A DNA stretch of 64,000 bases, taken from positions 1-64,000 of the forward strand of contig JANXBU010000007.1 in assembly GCA_025060505.1 (NCBI GenBank). The letters run 5' to 3'. Origin of the DNA: Candidatus Calescibacterium sp. (GTDB lineage: Bacteria > Calescibacteriota > Calescibacteriia > Calescibacteriales > Calescibacteriaceae). Position numbers and translations under genes: made by a program. Below, piece by piece: positions 3,145-14,304 of the stretch. The notes beneath the pieces were generated by a model. The model saw nothing but the letters and a program-made list of their open reading frames with translations, did no database searches and had not been told where the DNA came from. The stretch's first letter is position 1; each line of letters opens with the position of its first letter.

Positions 3145-3711
3145 ATGTCAAGCAGAAAATATTTTGTTATCGGCTTCTTCATTCTCTGCTCCATACTTAA
3201 GTCAGAAGTATTAGGTCACGAATACGAAGAAGAAACAACAGCAGAAAAAGTAGAAATAACAGAAGAAGTGGGAACAGGTGAAACAACACAGGAAATAGAT
3301 CAAATAAAAATATTTGAAATTTCAAATCTTTTTGATCATCTCCACAACAAATTAGTTCATTTCCCAATTGCTGGAGGTATATTTGCTGGAATATTTGAGA
3401 TAATATCTTTGAAGTTCAAAAATTTTGTAGTCCCAACAAATGTAATTCTCGGGATAACCGCGATAAGTTCGCTCGCAGCCTTTTTATCTGGGAAAGCAAT
3501 TGAAGCTGAGTACAAAGAGGATATCTCTCCGGGACTTGAAAGAGCTCTTGAGCTACATGAAACATTCGGTTTCATAACTATGATAATATACTTTCTCGCA
3601 CTCGTTTTGAAGTTTATACCCAAAATGGATAAAATAGGTTCTGCCATAGTAATTCTGATGATGGCAGTAGTTGGAATAACAGGTTATCTCGGCGGATTCT
3701 TGGCTCACTGA
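3145..3711 (+). CDS. DUF2231 family membrane protein
   Basis: The 188-residue product has an N-terminal signal-like hydrophobic stretch (about 7-22), an acidic Glu/Thr-rich segment (25-55), then four membrane helices. The motif DHLHNKLVHFPIAGGIFAGI at about 73-92, a small-residue helix ending SGKAIEAE, and a later LELHETFGF match the DUF2231 pattern, with His residues in HNKLVHFP and LELHE. Members often sit beside cytochrome or heme genes and may bind a metal or heme, but the function is not established. It lies 40 bp after the chemoreceptor on the same strand and may be cotranscribed. Confidence 0.72.
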   Translation: MSSRKYFVIGFFILCSILKSEVLGHEYEEETTAEKVEITEEVGTGETTQEIDQIKIFEISNLFDHLHNKLVHFPIAGGIFAGIFEIISLKFKNFVVPTNVILGITAISSLAAFLSGKAIEAEYKEDISPGLERALELHETFGFITMIIYFLALVLKFIPKMDKIGSAIVILMMAVVGITGYLGGFLAH

Positions 3712-3930: not shown

Positions 3931-6900
3931 TTACTTTTGAGAAATATAAATCAACTTCCTTATTCTTAGAACAATAAGCAAAACAAAGATTGATACGACT
4001 GCTTCAAGATCAAATGAAGAACAACCACTGGAGCTTCTTTGCCCAGAAAATAGATCAGACCTACTTTCATAATTGAATATATTTTCATTCGCATCAGCAA
4101 AAAGCTGTGGAGCCGGGGCAAGAGTTCCACAGGCTCCAACAACATTACCACCTGAGGACTCAGAGAGCGTCAGAGGCGCAACTGAAACAGATACTGTTAT
4201 ATCAGCTGTGAGCGGTGTAGAGAACTCATCAAATCCGCCAGCGGATACTATTATATCTTGAACGTTTTTGAGTCCGCATGTGTTCTCCGATATCTCAGTG
4301 ATGTATATATCATAAAGACCGTTTCCAAAGCTATCGGTTGAAGCAACAAGAATAAGCTTTCCATCGCTTCTGGTAACAAATGAAGCTTTACCAGCGCTGA
4401 AAGCAGATGATCCTGAGTTTCCGAGTTCGTTTGAACCTCCACCAAGCAGATTCATCTGTAATATATTTCCGTCTGTATCAAATTTTATGAGAATGATGTC
4501 AGAAGTTGGAGGTATAGAGTCTGTTCTACCAACTATAATAAAGTTTCCATCTGGCGTTTTTGATATTGAGTGTCCATACTCGTGACTTGATGTAGAATAC
4601 CCCCAACCAACAACTTTCTTCCATATAACTCCCCCATCTTTATCAATCTTACCAAAGAAGATATTGTAGTCATCTGAACCGACAGATGATCTGAGTGACC
4701 CCAAGAATATCGAGTTTCCATCTTCTGCTTCTACAATAGATGGAGCATCATCATCCTGAGGACCACCAATAGACTTTAACCATAGCAAATTACCGTTCTC
4801 ATCAACCTTCATTATAAAACCATCGTTACCAGAACCCACCCTGAAGCTCTGTGTTATACCTGTTATTATATAGTATCCATCTGATGTTTTTATTATTGAT
4901 GATGGTTGATCAGAAGCTGAACCATATATCCTTTTTGCCCAAATTTTGTTCCCGTTTGAGTCAAGTTTCACGAGTATCACATCATGCGATGTTGAAGCAA
5001 CATTTGACCGAACCAGAACCAAGTAACCCCCATCTGATGTTTGAACAACACCTCTACCAGCATCATCAGTAGTGTAGTCTATCCTTCTTATCCACAAGGT
5101 TGTTCCAGAAGAAGATATTTTAGCAACAACCGCATCTCGGTTAAGCAGTGGACTATATGTACCAACAATCACAAAATTCCCGTCTGAATCTTGAATAACA
5201 GCTCTTGCATCATCTGATGTATTTAATGCTCCCAGAGTTTTTGACCATGATAGATTTAGATTGCTGTTGAACCTTAGGATATACATATCACCAGATGAAT
5301 CAGATATCTGTGTTGAACCCACAACGACCAAACCATCATCTGCTGTTCTTACAGCCTGATACGGAATATCCCCACCTGTTCCGCCAACTGCTATTGATAT
5401 AGGTGTATAAGCATAACACATTGAATATTCTCTCGGTCTTTGGACTAAGTTTGAAGGAGCTGGAGTTCCAATTGATGGATTAATAAACTGTGAAACTACC
5501 GCCGGAAAATTTTCAGAGAAAGATGCCGATACAACAATTGAGTTCTGTATATTTTCATTACATCCAAGCACCCCATCTTCTGAAAGCTTCAAAACATATT
5601 TATCAAGATTTCCAAAGTTATTCGTTGTACCAACCACAAGAATCTCTCCACTTTCATTTTTTATAACAAAATTTCCTATTTCATTCAAAGATGATTTTCC
5701 TATTGTTTTTGTCTGCTCAACATTCCCAGAGTTATCTATTTTCACAAGATATATATCTTTTCCAGCTGAAAAACTCGATGTTTCTCCAACAACGATATAC
5801 TTTCCATCTTTTGTAGGAGATATTGATTTTGCTATATCATCTCCGCTCCCGCCAACTAATCTGCTCCATGAAACAGTTCCATTACTTTGAATTTTCGTTA
5901 TCAAGACATCACGGTTTGGAGATACTCCGGAAGCACCGACAATAATGAAACCTCCATCACTTGTTGGGATCGCGTACTCTGGAATATCATCCGTTGCGCT
6001 TCCGATCGTCTTTGCCCAAACAAGACCAAAAGCCTGTGTTAACTTGACCGCAAATATATCATATCCACCAGCACCAAAAGAGTTTGTTTTACCAACAACA
6101 AGATACCCCCCATCAGAAGTTTCTACAACAGCTTTAGCAGAATCGTATTGCGCTCCACCAATAACTAATGCTAACGACAAACTAAAGGCATTACTGAGTT
6201 TTACTATCATCATATCCGAGCAAGTTCCACCACAAGTTTGACCAAAACTGTAGGTTTCTCCAACAACAACATAGCTTATACTCATTCCAAAATAATCCTG
6301 TAAAGATGAGAATGCTATGTCTGATAAAGAACCGCCTATAAATCTTGGAGTCGCACTACCATCTGCTCCAAACCTTACAAACAACATATCAGAACAATTG
6401 CCTCCGCAATTTCCACCGAAGCTATATGTCTCGCCAGAAATCAGAAAACCTATGTATGGGACCCCAGTTTCAACTGCTGGGGTTATATGGTAAGCCCTAT
6501 CTATATTTGCTCCTCCCAGAGTTCTTACATAAATAGTTGCACCACTTGGGTGAATCTTGGTGACCATTATGTCTTCATTACCGGCTCCAAAACTTGTTGT
6601 AGTTCCCACAATAAGGTATCCACCATCAAGATAAAGGCTTGTTCTCAAGCTAAGTGGCACTTGCACGATTCCATAGGCTATATCATTCCCCACGCCAGAT
6701 ATAGATTTTGCAAAAGCACCAAAACCCTCAACTGAAACTACATTTGAAAACGGACCCGAACCAGTTGTGTTTTTAGCATAAACTCTGTAGAACTTTGACA
6801 TGTTAGAATATGTATAGTCAACATAGTGTGTTACCGAAGGAGGCAGAAACGTTATCTGAGTAAAGTATACACCATCATTTGACCTTTCCAAAACGAAACT

Positions 6901-9333
6901 AGCAACGTTCGAAGATTGTACAGGATATTCCCACCTCAAAGTTGCATAAGAAACGCCCCAAGAATAAACTGTAAGAGAAGGGGAGTAGCACGGAGATGTA
7001 TTTTCATCAAAGTAGAAGTTACAATTGTTATCTATACCGTCACAAGTATTATCAGGAATAGAAGGGTTAATATTCACAGCGGAATCGTTGCAATCTCCTA
7101 ATCCTAATTGACTCCCCACTGTTATCATACCAGGATAAATCACCAAATCCACACACACAGATACATTGTTCGGAGCATATAAATCTCCATCCACATCCGT
7201 ATATCCCCAACTCTCTACATTACCACTACAATCATTGTCTAATACATCGTTGCAATTCAACGCAGCTCCAGGATAAACACTACTTGAGTTATCGTTACAA
7301 TCCGCAGGCTTGGGTATCGGTGTATACCCCAACGGCATCACATTCGCACACTGACTCACAGGCGTCGTCCATCCATCTCCATCCTGATCCTCATAATACC
7401 ACATCTCCACATGTCCTGAACAATCCTCATCCAATGCATTATTGCAGTTCAACGCAGCTCCAGGATAAACACTACTTGAGTTATCGTTACAATCACCTCC
7501 CGGTATCGCTACATATGTCGCATTGTTCGGTGCATACGGATTCAAACAGCTTATACTACTACCTCCCACAGGATAGTATCCATCTACATCTCCATCCAAA
7601 TACCACCTCGTACCAGGATTCATCCGGCTATCTCCATCATTACAATCTCCACTCGTTGATACTAGCTCGGAACCCAACTTGTATCCCAACGGCCTCATAC
7701 ACTGCAACTGCGTCACTCCACTTGAGTATCCATCTCCATCCATATCACTATACCACACAGTACCTGGATTTATTGCTGGACTTGTATCATCACAGTCAAG
7801 AGCGTTTGAAACATATCCCGGAGGTTGCGAAGCTGCCTGTATTGAAGATGCTGGATTTCCGAAACCATCTCCATCAAGATCTCGATAGAATGTTGGCAAG
7901 CCAGCTCCCTCGTCCACCAAACCATTACAGTTATCATCTACACCGTTTATAATTTCTACCGCGCCCGGTTTAACATTTGAACTCGAATCATTGCAGTCAA
8001 ATGAATTCATAACATATCCATTAGGCTTTACACATCCCTGTGTTAAAGGAGAAGGACTACCATAACCATCTCCATCTGAATCAATATAGAACGTAAGTAA
8101 AACACCTTCATCTATTTGACCATTGCAGTTATCATCTATGAAATTACAAAACTCTGCCGCACCGGGTTTCGTTTCCGAACTCGTATCGTCACAATCATTT
8201 GTTCCAGAAGCATCTGAAATAGCTATCAGACCATATGAAATTTCATTTACGCAGGTCGAAACACTATTAGGAGAGTATTTGTCACCATCCAAATCCCTAT
8301 AAGCAAAGAATTCAACTTTTCCGTCACAATCATTATCAAAGTTATCAAGGCAGTTCAAAGGAGCAGTTGGAAAAACTTCTGCTCTTGAATCATCACAATC
8401 ACCAAAGCCAAAAATAAGATCTATAGGCTTCAGAGTGCTATCCTCTAATTTCAAAACACAAACAGGTGCAGAAGAAGATGCAAAACCATCTTGATCTTTG
8501 TCTTCATACACAAAAAATCCATCGGAACCATCACAATCAGAATCTATACCGTCACCGCAAGCATCTTGAGCTTCTGGATGTATGTTCTTATCTAAATCGT
8601 TACAATCAAAAAGCGGAACACCATTTTGTTGTGAATACTTGAGCTGACCTTCTGTAACATAGTTTGGAAAGCTGTTTATCCCATATATACTAACACCAGA
8701 AGGATATGTATCTCCATCAAAGTCAAAGAAAAAGAGAGTTGGATTAATATCCAACTTCACCCAAGCGGTCATACTTGGAATATAGTTGAACTTGCGAGAA
8801 AACGTCTTTACAATCTTCCCACCATCTTCCGTGTGTATCTTTATGTAATATATCTTTTCATCTCTTGCTGGTATTGAAAAGTCTACATAGTACAAGTTCT
8901 CACCCTCAACAGCTTTGAATTCAGTTTGTTTATCAATATTTCCAATAAGAACAGCTTTCTCACAATTCAAGTCCGCTTCTTCTCCGGCAACCTTCCAGAT
9001 ATAGAAGTTATCACATTTTTTGAGCTGATCTGTTGTCAGAAGAAATGATGTGACTCTTTCCATGAACTTCTTTCCTCCAAGCTCCCCATATCTTATCTGC
9101 TCATATATCTCTTCATCTACTATGGGTTCGGAGGGTATCTGACCTTCCAGAACAATCACCTTCAAGACCAAATTTGAACGCTTTATTCTTTCCACATCTT
9201 CCTTGATAAAAACAGCTCTCACCTTCATTCTGAAGTCACCCTCTTTTCCTCTAACAACACAACTGTACTGAACAAACAAAACAACAAATGCCAAAAGAAC
9301 TAAAAGATTCTTGAACTTATTTGTGATTTTCAT
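3931..9333 (-). CDS. Giant exported repeat protein: MopE-like acidic repeats, FN3 domain, two seven-blade propeller arrays, CTERM-like tail
   Basis: This 1800-residue protein starts with a signal peptide (hydrophobic residues 9-25). Residues about 200-785 hold ten DC(N/D)D...PGA...DNDCDG units, each with a DxDGDGY-type loop. These are the acidic putative metal-binding repeats of MopE-like surface proteins (PF11617 type) and would bind Ca2+ or another cation. An FN3-like domain follows (about 785-875, LRWEYPVQ... to FYRVYAKN). Then come 14 units of the pattern GGYLVVGxTxSFG...DIxxxKL, arranged as seven plus seven (about 876-1298 and 1311-1684). Each set is followed by a Cys-containing segment with IVVSA or IIVSA. 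The C-terminus has SSSGCSS, a hydrophobic helix and basic residues, like a CTERM sorting tail. A strong AGGAGGTGAGG site precedes the ATG, which overlaps the upstream stop by 4 nt. Probably a cell-surface or secreted protein. Confidence 0.85.
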   Translation of the reverse strand: MKITNKFKNLLVLLAFVVLFVQYSCVVRGKEGDFRMKVRAVFIKEDVERIKRSNLVLKVIVLEGQIPSEPIVDEEIYEQIRYGELGGKKFMERVTSFLLTTDQLKKCDNFYIWKVAGEEADLNCEKAVLIGNIDKQTEFKAVEGENLYYVDFSIPARDEKIYYIKIHTEDGGKIVKTFSRKFNYIPSMTAWVKLDINPTLFFFDFDGDTYPSGVSIYGINSFPNYVTEGQLKYSQQNGVPLFDCNDLDKNIHPEAQDACGDGIDSDCDGSDGFFVYEDKDQDGFASSSAPVCVLKLEDSTLKPIDLIFGFGDCDDSRAEVFPTAPLNCLDNFDNDCDGKVEFFAYRDLDGDKYSPNSVSTCVNEISYGLIAISDASGTNDCDDTSSETKPGAAEFCNFIDDNCNGQIDEGVLLTFYIDSDGDGYGSPSPLTQGCVKPNGYVMNSFDCNDSSSNVKPGAVEIINGVDDNCNGLVDEGAGLPTFYRDLDGDGFGNPASSIQAASQPPGYVSNALDCDDTSPAINPGTVWYSDMDGDGYSSGVTQLQCMRPLGYKLGSELVSTSGDCNDGDSRMNPGTRWYLDGDVDGYYPVGGSSISCLNPYAPNNATYVAIPGGDCNDNSSSVYPGAALNCNNALDEDCSGHVEMWYYEDQDGDGWTTPVSQCANVMPLGYTPIPKPADCNDNSSSVYPGAALNCNDVLDNDCSGNVESWGYTDVDGDLYAPNNVSVCVDLVIYPGMITVGSQLGLGDCNDSAVNINPSIPDNTCDGIDNNCNFYFDENTSPCYSPSLTVYSWGVSYATLRWEYPVQSSNVASFVLERSNDGVYFTQITFLPPSVTHYVDYTYSNMSKFYRVYAKNTTGSGPFSNVVSVEGFGAFAKSISGVGNDIAYGIVQVPLSLRTSLYLDGGYLIVGTTTSFGAGNEDIMVTKIHPSGATIYVRTLGGANIDRAYHITPAVETGVPYIGFLISGETYSFGGNCGGNCSDMLFVRFGADGSATPRFIGGSLSDIAFSSLQDYFGMSISYVVVGETYSFGQTCGGTCSDMMIVKLSNAFSLSLALVIGGAQYDSAKAVVETSDGGYLVVGKTNSFGAGGYDIFAVKLTQAFGLVWAKTIGSATDDIPEYAIPTSDGGFIIVGASGVSPNRDVLITKIQSNGTVSWSRLVGGSGDDIAKSISPTKDGKYIVVGETSSFSAGKDIYLVKIDNSGNVEQTKTIGKSSLNEIGNFVIKNESGEILVVGTTNNFGNLDKYVLKLSEDGVLGCNENIQNSIVVSASFSENFPAVVSQFINPSIGTPAPSNLVQRPREYSMCYAYTPISIAVGGTGGDIPYQAVRTADDGLVVVGSTQISDSSGDMYILRFNSNLNLSWSKTLGALNTSDDARAVIQDSDGNFVIVGTYSPLLNRDAVVAKISSSGTTLWIRRIDYTTDDAGRGVVQTSDGGYLVLVRSNVASTSHDVILVKLDSNGNKIWAKRIYGSASDQPSSIIKTSDGYYIITGITQSFRVGSGNDGFIMKVDENGNLLWLKSIGGPQDDDAPSIVEAEDGNSIFLGSLRSSVGSDDYNIFFGKIDKDGGVIWKKVVGWGYSTSSHEYGHSISKTPDGNFIIVGRTDSIPPTSDIILIKFDTDGNILQMNLLGGGSNELGNSGSSAFSAGKASFVTRSDGKLILVASTDSFGNGLYDIYITEISENTCGLKNVQDIIVSAGGFDEFSTPLTADITVSVSVAPLTLSESSGGNVVGACGTLAPAPQLFADANENIFNYESRSDLFSGQRSSSGCSSFDLEAVVSIFVLLIVLRIRKLIYISQK
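7252..7494. repeat. Near-identical 51-bp direct repeats inside the MopE-like region
   Basis: The 51-bp segments 7252-7302 and 7444-7494 differ at one position. They lie 192 bp apart, exactly 64 codons, so the reading frame of the 1800-residue protein is kept. Each encodes the conserved core DCNDNSSSVYPGAALNCN. Other repeats of the protein are much more diverged, so this is a recent unit duplication or gene-conversion event. Confidence 0.9.
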
Positions 9334-11363
9334 TTTTTGTCCTCACCTCCTTTATTCTGTTCCGAGTTTTCTTTATTTTCCATAGAATTACCTTCCGAAT
9401 TATTCTGGGATTCTCCTGGGATATCAGAACTTTTCTTCTGCTCTTGGCTCTCATCCTTTATCTCTCTTTTTCCTTGATCGGGTCTTATTTGTTCTAGATT
9501 CCGCTCATTTCCCATTTTCTCTGTATTCTTTCGCTGATGTTCCTGTATATTCTCTTCGGTTTTTGGAAATAAACCGTTGCCCGCTTCACCTTCAGATAAT
9601 TTCTTCACTACAACTCTTCTGTTTTTTTCTCTATTCTCCGGTGAATCGTTCGGTACAACCTGAGACTCAGATCCCTTACCTTCAACAATTAATCTTTCAG
9701 GACTAATCCCTTTGAGTATAAGATAACCCTTTATCTCCTCAGCAGTGGTCTCAGTAACTAACTCATCTAAATTCTGATTTGCGGTCCTATCAACATATAC
9801 TTCTATTGATACTTTCAGGTCTGGTCTCATCTTTAGATAATCAGAAAAAAGATCAAGTGAACCATATGATTCCTTGTAGAGCCTACCAGTTACTCTGTCG
9901 AATTTAATTTTTGGTATGTTGTAGTAAGTTTCCTTCCCATCAGATACCTCAACAACGCTTAGACCTCCTTTTATTCTGTTCAGAGCAACAACAACCTTGA
10001 CATCCTGATCTTTATTTATATCTATGTCAACTTGGCGTGTATAGAATGTTTCAGATGAAAAAAGCAGAGAATATCTTCCGGGAGTAATTTCAAATTCGAA
10101 CTCGCCTTTTTGATTTGTTGAAAACTTCTGCTTGGTTTCATATACAATAACATCTCCCTGTAAAGCTTCACCTTCTTCATCTAAGATCACACCCGAGACT
10201 TTTGTTGAAATATTTTTTTTCTGAAGCTTTATAACAATCTGTTGATCATACATTGCTGAGGATATATACTCCTGTGGTTTGAATCCTTCCTTTGAAACCA
10301 TGAGCCTTAAGCTATCTTTTCCCTCTGGTACTCTTATTGTAAAAAAGCCCCCACCACTGGATATCGCTCCGTATCCATCTACTTCATAAACAACAGCTTC
10401 ATCTATGGGATTATCATTCTCATCTACAACTCTACCAGATATTTTTATAAGATCAACCCCTTTCTTGATTCCACCAATGACATGCACACCAAAATAAACA
10501 AGATACGGAGTTGGATAATTCATACCAAACCCGTCTGATCTAAGGTAGAGATCAGAACCTAAGTTCAGAACAAACCAATCAATTGGACTAAGCTTCAGTG
10601 TTGGAGAAAAACCAGCAGCTATCTTACCTTCTGTATAATATTTCACAGAAAACCTGACCCCAAAAGCTGTCTTTATGAACTTGAGGAAATCTGGAAAATA
10701 AGGAATAGGCTCGGCAGAGATAAGAAAAGATAAAGATAAGCTGTTCGACGTTCTGAAAATTTGATCTATGTTTCTGTTAGAAGAGCTTCTATCAAAATTC
10801 AAAGTGAATTCCGGGTATAAAAAAACAGAGAAATCTTTCGCGTCAATTCTATGAAGTCCGAAAAGCGAATACGAATGATATATAAGAAAAAGCGAACTCG
10901 TAAAAGCTACTTCTGGTGAAAAGCCAATGACTATATCTTCTCTTGGGAAAACAAGAGTTCGTGGAGAAAAAGATGCAGCATAGAGAAAAAGTTTATCCAT
11001 CTTCTCATACCTGTTCATATAAGTCGTTTTCAGAGTATTGCCTATCGTGAAAACTTTTATATCTAGATTCTGAACGAATCTATTAAAATTTCCTTCAATT
11101 TCACGCGAGAAAATTCCAGCACTTACACCAACTAATCCCAAAATACGGTCAAAAGAACTTACTCTGTAAGCTATATCATCGGAGAAAGAAGAGAACCCAA
11201 AGTATGAAAAAGCAATACCTTCACGAAAATCAAGAGGTATAAGATTACTTTTTTCCTTAAAGTCAAAAAGAGATATCGCTCTTGTATCTGCAGCAGCTGC
11301 GCCCCCATAAAAGAAAGCAATCAAAAGAGCAAATTTAAATCTCCCTATATTTATCCCCTTCAT
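9330..11363 (-). CDS. OmpA-like outer-membrane protein with two carboxypeptidase-regulatory-like domains
   Basis: The 677-residue product has a signal peptide (about 1-25, ending FYGGAAAADT). A region rich in alternating aromatic and polar residues (about 30-300) is likely a beta-barrel or barrel-like domain. Two carboxypeptidase-regulatory-like (beta-sandwich) domains follow, starting ISGRVVDENDNPIDEAVVYE (about 308) and VSGVILDEEGEALQGDVIVY (about 390). An OmpA-C-type domain occupies about 485-590, ending NREKNRRVVVKKL, and keeps the Arg pair that binds diaminopimelate. Its central GHTD and RA motifs are altered to YVDRTANQNL. The last 85 residues are Glu/Lys/Asn/Gln-rich and look disordered. 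It overlaps the giant repeat protein by 4 nt (ATGA), implying translational coupling. It may anchor or export that protein at the outer membrane (inference). Confidence 0.85.
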   Translation of the reverse strand: MKGINIGRFKFALLIAFFYGGAAAADTRAISLFDFKEKSNLIPLDFREGIAFSYFGFSSFSDDIAYRVSSFDRILGLVGVSAGIFSREIEGNFNRFVQNLDIKVFTIGNTLKTTYMNRYEKMDKLFLYAASFSPRTLVFPREDIVIGFSPEVAFTSSLFLIYHSYSLFGLHRIDAKDFSVFLYPEFTLNFDRSSSNRNIDQIFRTSNSLSLSFLISAEPIPYFPDFLKFIKTAFGVRFSVKYYTEGKIAAGFSPTLKLSPIDWFVLNLGSDLYLRSDGFGMNYPTPYLVYFGVHVIGGIKKGVDLIKISGRVVDENDNPIDEAVVYEVDGYGAISSGGGFFTIRVPEGKDSLRLMVSKEGFKPQEYISSAMYDQQIVIKLQKKNISTKVSGVILDEEGEALQGDVIVYETKQKFSTNQKGEFEFEITPGRYSLLFSSETFYTRQVDIDINKDQDVKVVVALNRIKGGLSVVEVSDGKETYYNIPKIKFDRVTGRLYKESYGSLDLFSDYLKMRPDLKVSIEVYVDRTANQNLDELVTETTAEEIKGYLILKGISPERLIVEGKGSESQVVPNDSPENREKNRRVVVKKLSEGEAGNGLFPKTEENIQEHQRKNTEKMGNERNLEQIRPDQGKREIKDESQEQKKSSDIPGESQNNSEGNSMENKENSEQNKGGEDKK

Positions 11364-11805: not shown

Positions 11806-14304
11806 ATGGAAGCGAGGGAAAAAGCATCATCCCTGTTTGAGCAAAACATCTTCAAGAAAAACATAAAAGAAATCCTCGAACAAATAACGAACATCTTTGA
11901 AGAGGAAGTAAAAGAAGTATGGAGAAAATTCCTACAAGATCTCTCAGATGAAATGGTACTTCTTGGATTTGGAAGCTTTGGAAGAAAAACCATGACACCT
12001 TTTTCTGATATAGACATAGTACTTCTGACAAAATCAAAAAAATCGGAATATGAGCAAAAAATATCTGACTTCATAACTGCTCTTTGGGATAGAGGCTTTG
12101 GAAAAATTGAACACTCCGTAAGAACAGTAGAGGAAACTTTAAAACTCTCGCTGGAAGATGTAAAAGTCTTATCTTACCTAACCGATCTGAGATTCATTGC
12201 CGGAAATTTCAGAATTCTTGAGAAACTAAAAAAGCAAAAAAAGAAATTCTGTAAAGAACATAAAGAACATATATTCAATGAACTCTACAAAGACAGAAAT
12301 TCAAGGATCTCAAAATTTACAAATTTGCTTGAACCAAACATTAAAAGCTCACCGGGAGGCATCAGCGATTTCCTTTATCTGAATTATCTTAAAGATCTTG
12401 TCAGCAGAGACATCCTTGTGAACATCAAAGATATAAAAAAACAATATGAGAAACTCATTGAGATCAGAAGTATCCTACACTTCATCTTGAAAAAAAACGA
12501 AGATAAAATAAGCTCAGGTTATATTGAAGAGGTTGTCAACTTCATCAGTGCAAAAAAAGGAAAAAAGCAAAACCTGAAGAAATTCATGACCCATTTGATT
12601 GATGATATGCACAGAATATACGTAATAACAAACATCGCTCAGGAATATGTTCAAAAAAGCATAAGATATTCTCTTGAACTTTCCAATTTAGGTGATAAAT
12701 TTCAAACAGATTCTCAATTCATTTACTACAAAAATTCAGAAGCACTAAATCCAAGGTGCGTTATGGAAGCATTCAAACTATCAAAGGATAACAACCTCAA
12801 AATATCCCCAGAATTCTCATATAAAATTTTGAAGAATCAGAAAGCTTTGAAAGAAATGTGGACAGATCAGGAGTCAACGAAAATATTCTGTGAAATACTC
12901 ACAGACCCCGGTGGTGTTGGAAGAACTTTACTATATATGAGAGATCTTGGAGTTTTACATAAGGCTATTCCTGAGTTTTCTTATGTAAAAAATTTATATC
13001 AGATTCACCCTCCGCATGTTTATCCAGTAGATCTGCATCTGATAAAGTGCGCAGAGGAAGCAGAAAAAATACTCCTTGGAATGAAACCGCAATATATAAA
13101 TTTTATACCCGAATTAAGTTTGGAAAAGAGAGGTATTCTTATATTCTCCGCCCTACTACATGACATAGGTAAAGGAAGAAAAAAAGATCACTCGGAACTT
13201 GGTGAGAAACTCTCCGAAAAAATTGCTAAGAGGTTTGGTATAGTTGGAGAAAATCTTGAGATCTTGAAATTCTTGGTCAAAAATCATCTGGCATTATCTC
13301 ACTATTCTCAAAGAAGAGACATACATGAAGAAAACTATCTCAAAAAAGTTGCTGGGAGTTTTCCTGACACCTTATCTCTTGATATGTTGTATCTTCTTTC
13401 ATTAGCTGACGCGCTCGCTACAAATCCCAACAACTGGAATAGCTGGAAAGCTCATCTCATCTCAGAAATATACATAAAACTCTCTGAAATAATAAGAAAA
13501 GGACTTGAATACACGGAAGGACAGCATATAGATGTATCCTTACTTGTAGAAGATCTGAAACACTTTTTTCCATCAGATATAGTTGTACAAGCTGTATCAT
13601 CTCTGTCTCAGAAATTCATATCTTTCTTCAATTACGATAGACTCTTCCGTTATATTCTCTTCCTACTCAAAGCATACTTTTCTCAATCAAGATATGTAGC
13701 TTTCACGAAGAGGGAGGAAGGTATAATAGAGATAATAACAATAGGAGATGATGTAGAAGGTTTCCTTTGTGAATGTGCCGGAATGTTGTTTGTTTCTGGA
13801 TTCAATATTCTCTCGCTTTACGCAGAAGGAGCTGTTTTAGGAAAAGCAATCAATATATTCTGGGTGGAACCTCCGGATGTAGGGAAATACCGAAAATTTG
13901 AGAAAATATTTTATTCAAGAAGGCTTGAAGATTTACTCGGTGAAATCTATGAGAAGAAAAAGAAATTGATACCCTACTTTATCCAAGCAAACCCGTTTGC
14001 AAATCAGAATACAGAAAAAACTATAAAAGTGATATTTGACAACACATCATCGGAAGATTACACAATAGTCGAAGTCTACTGCTTTGATAGACCTGCTTTA
14101 CTTTTTGACATAACCTACGCCATAACTTTTTCTGGATATGATATTTCTGTTGCGAAAATCTCAACCAGAGAGAACAAGGTAGCCGATGTGTTTTACATAA
14201 GAGATAAGAAGAAAATCAACGGAAAGCTTTCAGAAGCTCAGTTCAAAGATCTTGAAAGTAAAATCATATCTGCCATCATTCAAGGGATTCCTCCTGTCCA
14301 ATAG
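11806..14304 (+). CDS. glnD: [Protein-PII] uridylyltransferase / uridylyl-removing enzyme
   Basis: The 832-residue protein has the GlnD layout. A nucleotidyltransferase domain carries GFGSFGRKTMTPFSDIDIVL at about 50-70, with the paired Asp metal ligands. A helical domain follows, then an HD hydrolase domain with ALLHDIGKGRKKDHSELG at about 449-466, and a C-terminal ACT domain near 755-800 (IVEVYCFDRPALLFDITYAI). GlnD uridylylates and deuridylylates PII in response to glutamine, controlling nitrogen assimilation. It is slightly shorter than the typical 850-900 residues. Only one ACT domain is obvious; a weaker one may lie at about 640-710. No PII or glutamine synthetase gene is in the window. 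The last 29 nt overlap the convergent ParB-like gene. Confidence 0.92.
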   Translation: MEAREKASSLFEQNIFKKNIKEILEQITNIFEEEVKEVWRKFLQDLSDEMVLLGFGSFGRKTMTPFSDIDIVLLTKSKKSEYEQKISDFITALWDRGFGKIEHSVRTVEETLKLSLEDVKVLSYLTDLRFIAGNFRILEKLKKQKKKFCKEHKEHIFNELYKDRNSRISKFTNLLEPNIKSSPGGISDFLYLNYLKDLVSRDILVNIKDIKKQYEKLIEIRSILHFILKKNEDKISSGYIEEVVNFISAKKGKKQNLKKFMTHLIDDMHRIYVITNIAQEYVQKSIRYSLELSNLGDKFQTDSQFIYYKNSEALNPRCVMEAFKLSKDNNLKISPEFSYKILKNQKALKEMWTDQESTKIFCEILTDPGGVGRTLLYMRDLGVLHKAIPEFSYVKNLYQIHPPHVYPVDLHLIKCAEEAEKILLGMKPQYINFIPELSLEKRGILIFSALLHDIGKGRKKDHSELGEKLSEKIAKRFGIVGENLEILKFLVKNHLALSHYSQRRDIHEENYLKKVAGSFPDTLSLDMLYLLSLADALATNPNNWNSWKAHLISEIYIKLSEIIRKGLEYTEGQHIDVSLLVEDLKHFFPSDIVVQAVSSLSQKFISFFNYDRLFRYILFLLKAYFSQSRYVAFTKREEGIIEIITIGDDVEGFLCECAGMLFVSGFNILSLYAEGAVLGKAINIFWVEPPDVGKYRKFEKIFYSRRLEDLLGEIYEKKKKLIPYFIQANPFANQNTEKTIKVIFDNTSSEDYTIVEVYCFDRPALLFDITYAITFSGYDISVAKISTRENKVADVFYIRDKKKINGKLSEAQFKDLESKIISAIIQGIPPVQ

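Follow-up and report, generated by a model that had tools for sequence, protein, structure and literature searches.

What kind of surface protein is encoded by the 1800-codon open reading frame at positions 3931-9333 on the minus strand, and how would a protein of this size be held on the cell? The frame lies in a 64,000-nucleotide stretch of DNA from Candidatus Calescibacterium sp. (hereafter, the window). An earlier note, made from the letters of this DNA, had described an 1800-residue surface protein, and the frame that we recovered matches its bounds exactly. On balance, our analysis favors the reading that the protein is a surface adhesin or receptor of the TraA or MXAN_5598 type, exported by a type II secretion system (T2SS), anchored through its C terminus, and equipped with a putative barrel/OmpA partner and with other binding heads. 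The components are each of a known kind, and the combination of tandem capped rings, a MYXO-CTERM-like tag, and an overlapping or fused putative barrel in an uncultured lineage is new.

Read from its N terminus, the protein begins with a hydrophobic signal sequence (9259-9333) that ends in FVQYSC, an atypical lipobox; the orthologue from a sister genus has LFGC where this protein has VQYSC. An N-terminal domain without a Pfam match (8749-9255) follows, and then an array of MopE-like acidic units (6979-8736), an FN3-like segment (6718-6978), propeller A (aa 874-1255; 5569-6714), cap A (5410-5568), propeller B (aa 1311-1684; 4282-5403), cap B (4123-4281), and a C-terminal sorting tag, GCSSFDLEAVVSIFVLLIVLRIRKLIYISQK (3931-4026), all on the minus strand. 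The segment that the earlier note called an FN3 domain looks FN3-like, though the assignment is weak, with a sub-threshold Pfam score of 13.4 bits against a cutoff of 25 (E = 0.09) and 13.9 bits in the orthologue. A Shine-Dalgarno sequence (GGAGGT, approximately 9345-9350) lies inside the last codons of the upstream gene (9330-11363), which encodes the putative barrel/OmpA protein, and the two frames overlap in an ATGA at 9330-9333. The nearest flanking genes (3145-3711 and 11806-14304) are on the opposite strand, and thus the pair resembles a two-gene operon. Scans for terminators and sigma-70 promoters gave results no better than shuffles. Both the C-terminal tag and the overlapping gene were absent from the earlier note.

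The tag consists of GCSS (Cys1771), a transmembrane helix, and a basic R/K tail, which are the three parts of a MYXO-CTERM signal, and no other long ORF in the window ends in this way. Guo, Haft and Wall described MrtX-dependent cleavage and surface anchoring of MYXO-CTERM tags in Myxococcus xanthus, with export by the T2SS (PMC11980579). Within the GTDB family, a number of large exported proteins also end in GCS-TM-R/K tags, with examples in each of its five genomes, and most of the tagged proteins were outside the set on which the tag profile was trained. In 16 tags from the five genomes, GCS was invariant and was always followed directly by a helix and basic tail, an invariance that is partly selection because the profile weights GCS. 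Each of the five genomes encodes exactly one CPBP (PF02517) protease. All five proteases have the EExxxR, H, and HxxxN residues of a glutamic active site, and their best NCBIfam models are myxosortases, with Mrt_core (NF040914) scores of 88-99 bits that fall narrowly below the cutoff of 100. Across 116 genomes, ordinary CPBP proteins scored no higher than 44 bits on this model, whereas the myxosortase-like group scored 68-142 bits. A complete GspD (TIGR02517) exceeded its cutoff in all five genomes, which are 82-86% complete, and the T2SS was judged by GspD alone. The tag, the protease, and the secretin lend support to the designation of surface protein, through a signal that the earlier note had left unnamed.

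The protein could be held more simply, either as a membrane protein on an uncleaved C-terminal helix or as a conventional N-terminal surface lipoprotein, with the GCS motif being incidental. We consider this account unlikely, although several observations speak for it. No curated tag model recognized the window tag: TIGR03901 (MYXO-CTERM) did not match it and gave at best 8.4 bits against a cutoff of 20 for any tag of the lineage, and the JDVT-CTERM model did not recognize it. Good N-terminal lipoboxes are found on the orthologue and on several other tagged proteins (LFGC, LQTC, FVGC, ITAC, LTTC, and FSSC), and an N-terminal anchor could suffice. Against this account are the partly selected invariance of GCS, always before a helix and basic tail, and the presence of one myxosortase-like protease in each genome. 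Similar tags also accompany the enzyme outside the family: two Mrt_core-positive genomes (G048 and G053) yielded Cys-TM-Arg tails (GFGCSS... and SFGCTQ...), whereas none was seen in 12 Mrt-negative genomes. A tag-only HMM run on 24 distant genomes gave scores so near noise that they could not on their own separate true tags from false ones; both of the additional tags that convinced us in that scan came from Mrt_core-positive genomes.

The preferred reading, in which the tag is a C-terminal sorting signal, likens the lineage to the MYXO-CTERM/MrtX system in three respects: a tripartite tag with an invariant Cys, a CPBP glutamic intramembrane protease, and a T2SS. The lineage differs in that its motif, GCS(S/T/A/C), is missed by TIGR03901, its protease is narrowly under the Mrt_core cutoff, and it is represented by uncultured genomes that form one small family. 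It also differs in that many of its substrates have an N-terminal lipobox in addition to the tag (L054, L051, L052, L156, L158, and L160), whereas the published account of the tagged set in M. xanthus speaks simply of N-terminal signal peptides (PMC11980579). Double lipid anchoring of the proteins that bear both signals is possible, and if both ends were lipidated, the chain would loop on the cell surface.

The operon partner (9330-11363, minus strand) is a 677-residue protein with a signal peptide, a putative outer-membrane beta-barrel (aa 28-305; 10449-11282), two carboxypeptidase-regulatory-like domains (CarboxypepD_reg; 9978-10448), a peptidoglycan-binding-type OmpA domain (9618-9902), and a charged tail. 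The barrel region, approximately 280 residues long and 18% aromatic, showed alternation of hydrophobicity over that of shuffles (p = 0.023), and the propellers showed none. AlphaFold left this region unfolded (pLDDT below 35). The barrel is putative, and we infer it from weak composition statistics and domain order. In the sister genus, the adhesin and a homologue of the partner's barrel are joined in one reading frame. The G001 orthologue (L054, 4963-11169, minus strand; apparently contig JAUQOU010000011.1) is one 2069-codon ORF that joins the 7+7 rings, the tag, a signal-like helix, and the homologous barrel/CarboxypepD region in the same frame, without OmpA, and no obvious Shine-Dalgarno sequence precedes the internal ATG at the end of its tag. 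In four of the five genomes (L148-L151, in G003 C2, G001 C29, G002 C1, and G000 C38), a second conserved family packs a similar construction into one ORF: proteins of 2.1-2.7 kilo-residues with choice-of-anchor-D repeats, a GCSCSS tag, a second signal-like helix, a putative barrel, and OmpA. Three of these four ORFs are followed by a small gene (about 260-290 aa).

In Myxococcus, the ORFs of TraA and TraB overlap, and MXAN_5598 is an adhesin followed by an internal MYXO-CTERM and then by barrel and OmpA domains (PMC11980579, PMC6372800). Descriptions of this adhesin-tag-barrel arrangement come from social myxobacteria, in which TraA/TraB help in kin recognition. The order of parts in MXAN_5598 is that of L148-L151, and of L054 as well, although the latter lacks OmpA. 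The window, in contrast, has the parts as two overlapping genes in reverse order, and the likeness drawn here is one of layout. The resemblance to TraA/TraB lies in the overlap of a tagged adhesin with a barrel protein that carries an OmpA domain. These features, together with weak matches to the TraB model in the OmpA part only, could be taken to mean that the pair is a self/non-self recognition receptor driving membrane exchange exactly as TraA/TraB do, which we regard as quite improbable. The TraB model NF033763 scored 27.6 bits against a cutoff of 700, and Pfam found no PA14-type variable domain in the whole protein or in the N-terminal domain alone; the window adhesin is made instead of MopE units and two propellers. 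In addition, the gene order is reversed, with the barrel gene first, and CarboxypepD domains stand in place of TSP-3 repeats. The curated cutoffs for TraB, MYXO-CTERM, and myxosortase were all missed, and that these proteins work like those systems is our best reading.

To define the rings, we trained a blade profile HMM on blades from the 1800-residue protein and related proteins. The profile found seven blades, a cap, seven blades, and a cap, in agreement with the 14 blades in two blocks of seven that had been counted before. When the same HMM was run on fetched proteins from many phyla, 30 of the 39 runs of at least four blades were rings of exactly seven. The recurrence of exact seven-rings in these other proteins shows that the HMM does not impose the number, and seven blades is the rule for the DUF5122-type repeat class. 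DUF5122 itself exceeded its Pfam cutoff in the 1800-residue protein (37.1 vs 27 bits); TIGR02608 (44.4 vs 76.5 bits) and the model for the Leptospira SBBP lipoprotein LipL53, NF047494 (87.7 vs 400 bits), were below theirs.

Structure prediction, which had been proposed as a check, also returned a propeller fold with seven plus seven blades. The AlphaFold2 model of the rings, built from a four-row alignment (mean pLDDT 65.5, pTM 0.48), had two separate beta domains with a low-confidence cap between them. Ring A contained 28 strands (one N-terminal strand, six sets of four, and a final three), a pattern that in the model gives seven four-strand blades with strand-exchange closure by the N-terminal strand. 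Ring B showed the same strand pattern at lower confidence. VIA-align superposed ring A on the CylK propeller over 363 residues (Z 43.9, rmsd 2.6) and ring B on the PLL lectins over some 310 residues (Z about 29); by sequence, too, CylK was the nearest solved relative (E about 3e-17). The protein shares its blade sequence family and seven-blade fold with CylK (7RON, 7FH6) and with the delta-60/DUF5122/SBBP repeat propellers, and its repeats of ~50 aa, strand-exchange closure, and propeller fold place it in that seven-bladed class. The likeness of ring B to the seven-bladed PLL/PHL lectins of Photorhabdus, at 11-13% identity, is one of fold. We rejected a single 14-blade ring: both halves have a closing strand of their own, with a cap between them, and each half aligned independently with solved rings.

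After each block of blades, the earlier note had seen a Cys segment and an IVVSA or IIVSA strand. The Cys pairs stand as sequence, 48 residues apart in cap A (Cys1258 and Cys1306) and 49 in cap B (Cys1686 and Cys1735), whereas the strand was unconfirmed as structure, and AlphaFold modeled the caps poorly (pLDDT below 50 for cap A). Spacing of 47-50 residues was found in seven caps from four proteins, and Cys pairs also follow rings in other lineages (L029, L065, L067, L073, L074, and L076). Taken together, the presence of two homologous seven-blade propellers, as the earlier note had claimed, each with a Cys-pair cap, is well supported. In a Stahlbacteria MAG (L079, 5920-8674), two adjoining separate genes each encode one seven-blade protein of the same class, the ring there being repeated as genes rather than within one chain.

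The likeness to CylK raises the question of catalysis. With CylK as the nearest solved relative in sequence and fold, the propellers might be enzymes, as are two proteins of matching fold, CylK (Friedel-Crafts alkylation) and virginiamycin B lyase, and we give this very little credence. CylK requires Arg105 from an N-terminal Ca2+ domain, which is absent here, as is the CylK catalytic domain; the window protein has tandem rings and Cys caps instead. Tyr473 of CylK aligns with Arg, in an alignment whose blade register is not unique, and this repeat class forms seven-blade rings in a wide range of unrelated proteins. When checked, CylK chemistry found no support.

Did the two rings arise by duplication of a whole propeller-plus-cap module, as had been suggested? 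The layout, the shared spacing of the caps, and a paralogue that repeats the module are in keeping with this proposal and make it plausible. In-register pairing of the blades of ring A with those of ring B, however, was not significantly better than random (p about 0.10; p = 0.35 for interior blades), and this register is no proof that a module was duplicated in one piece. The sister-genus orthologue keeps the 7+7 rings and caps at 38-39% identity, and its in-register pairing with the window blades was the best of 5040 permutations for ring A and ring B alike. From this blade-for-blade orthology across genera, the rings are old and were already distinct when the two genera split, so that any duplication would predate the split; a recent one is rejected. 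The search for the module elsewhere also recovered two paralogues, one in the same genome (L050: five or more blades, cap, seven blades, cap, and tag) and one in G002 (L055: seven blades, a cap, and the first part of another ring, where the contig ends). Together, these two proteins make tandem capped rings a recurrent feature of the lineage.

The acidic array holds nine MopE-like units (DxDxDG ... DCND) by two independent motifs (DCND/DCDD and YxDxDGDGY), one fewer than the ten counted earlier, with a PF11617 ('Cu-binding_MopE') match of 190.8 bits, and it is likely to be a Ca2+-binding stalk. Copper acquisition in the manner of Methylococcus MopE, for which the nine PF11617 units would speak, was checked and is scarcely credible, as the MopE copper site requires two His and an oxidized Trp (kynurenine) (PMC3423442), whereas the whole 599-residue array has two His, in separate units, and the units have the look of calcium sites of the DxDxDG type. 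A His/Ser/Tyr-rich antisense ORF of 222 aa runs across the array (7284-7952, plus strand) and is probably a shadow of the Asp/Gly/Asn-rich repeats rather than a gene.

The favored model for the anchored adhesin is as follows. Sec would carry the protein across the inner membrane, where the C-terminal helix would hold it, and the tag would be processed at Cys1771 by the single myxosortase-like CPBP protease of the genome. Once folded, the protein would pass through the type II secretin and come to lie on the external surface of the outer membrane, anchored by its C terminus. Since the anchor would be C-terminal, the rings would be membrane-proximal and the MopE arm distal: the two seven-blade rings could serve as ligand-binding heads, stiffened by caps with presumed disulphides, and the nine-unit array, possibly with bound Ca2+, could carry the N-terminal domain outward. 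The co-translated putative barrel/OmpA protein, as a possible physical partner, would fasten the adhesin complex to peptidoglycan as well as to the outer membrane. More tentatively, and with some doubt, we propose that myxosortase-type sorting operates in this uncultured, non-myxobacterial lineage on several giant adhesins that are paired or fused with barrels in the manner of TraA/TraB, many of them possibly lipid-anchored at both ends.

That the arrangement is conserved outside the myxobacteria, together with different binding heads and a protease close to myxosortase, suggests that Gram-negative bacteria use this way of anchoring giant surface proteins more generally. With one protease and few tags per genome, the lineage is also a small system for probing lipidation and cleavage.

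Outside this family, Mrt_core exceeded its cutoff in nine genomes of other families (G032, G048, G044, G094, G024, G095, G018, G053, and G039), and myxosortase-like enzymes may accordingly be widespread. We also observed a subtilisin-like protease in G004 (L056, 2086-4341, plus strand) that ends in GCGC...TM...RRK, which is nearer to the GCGC form of myxobacterial tags.
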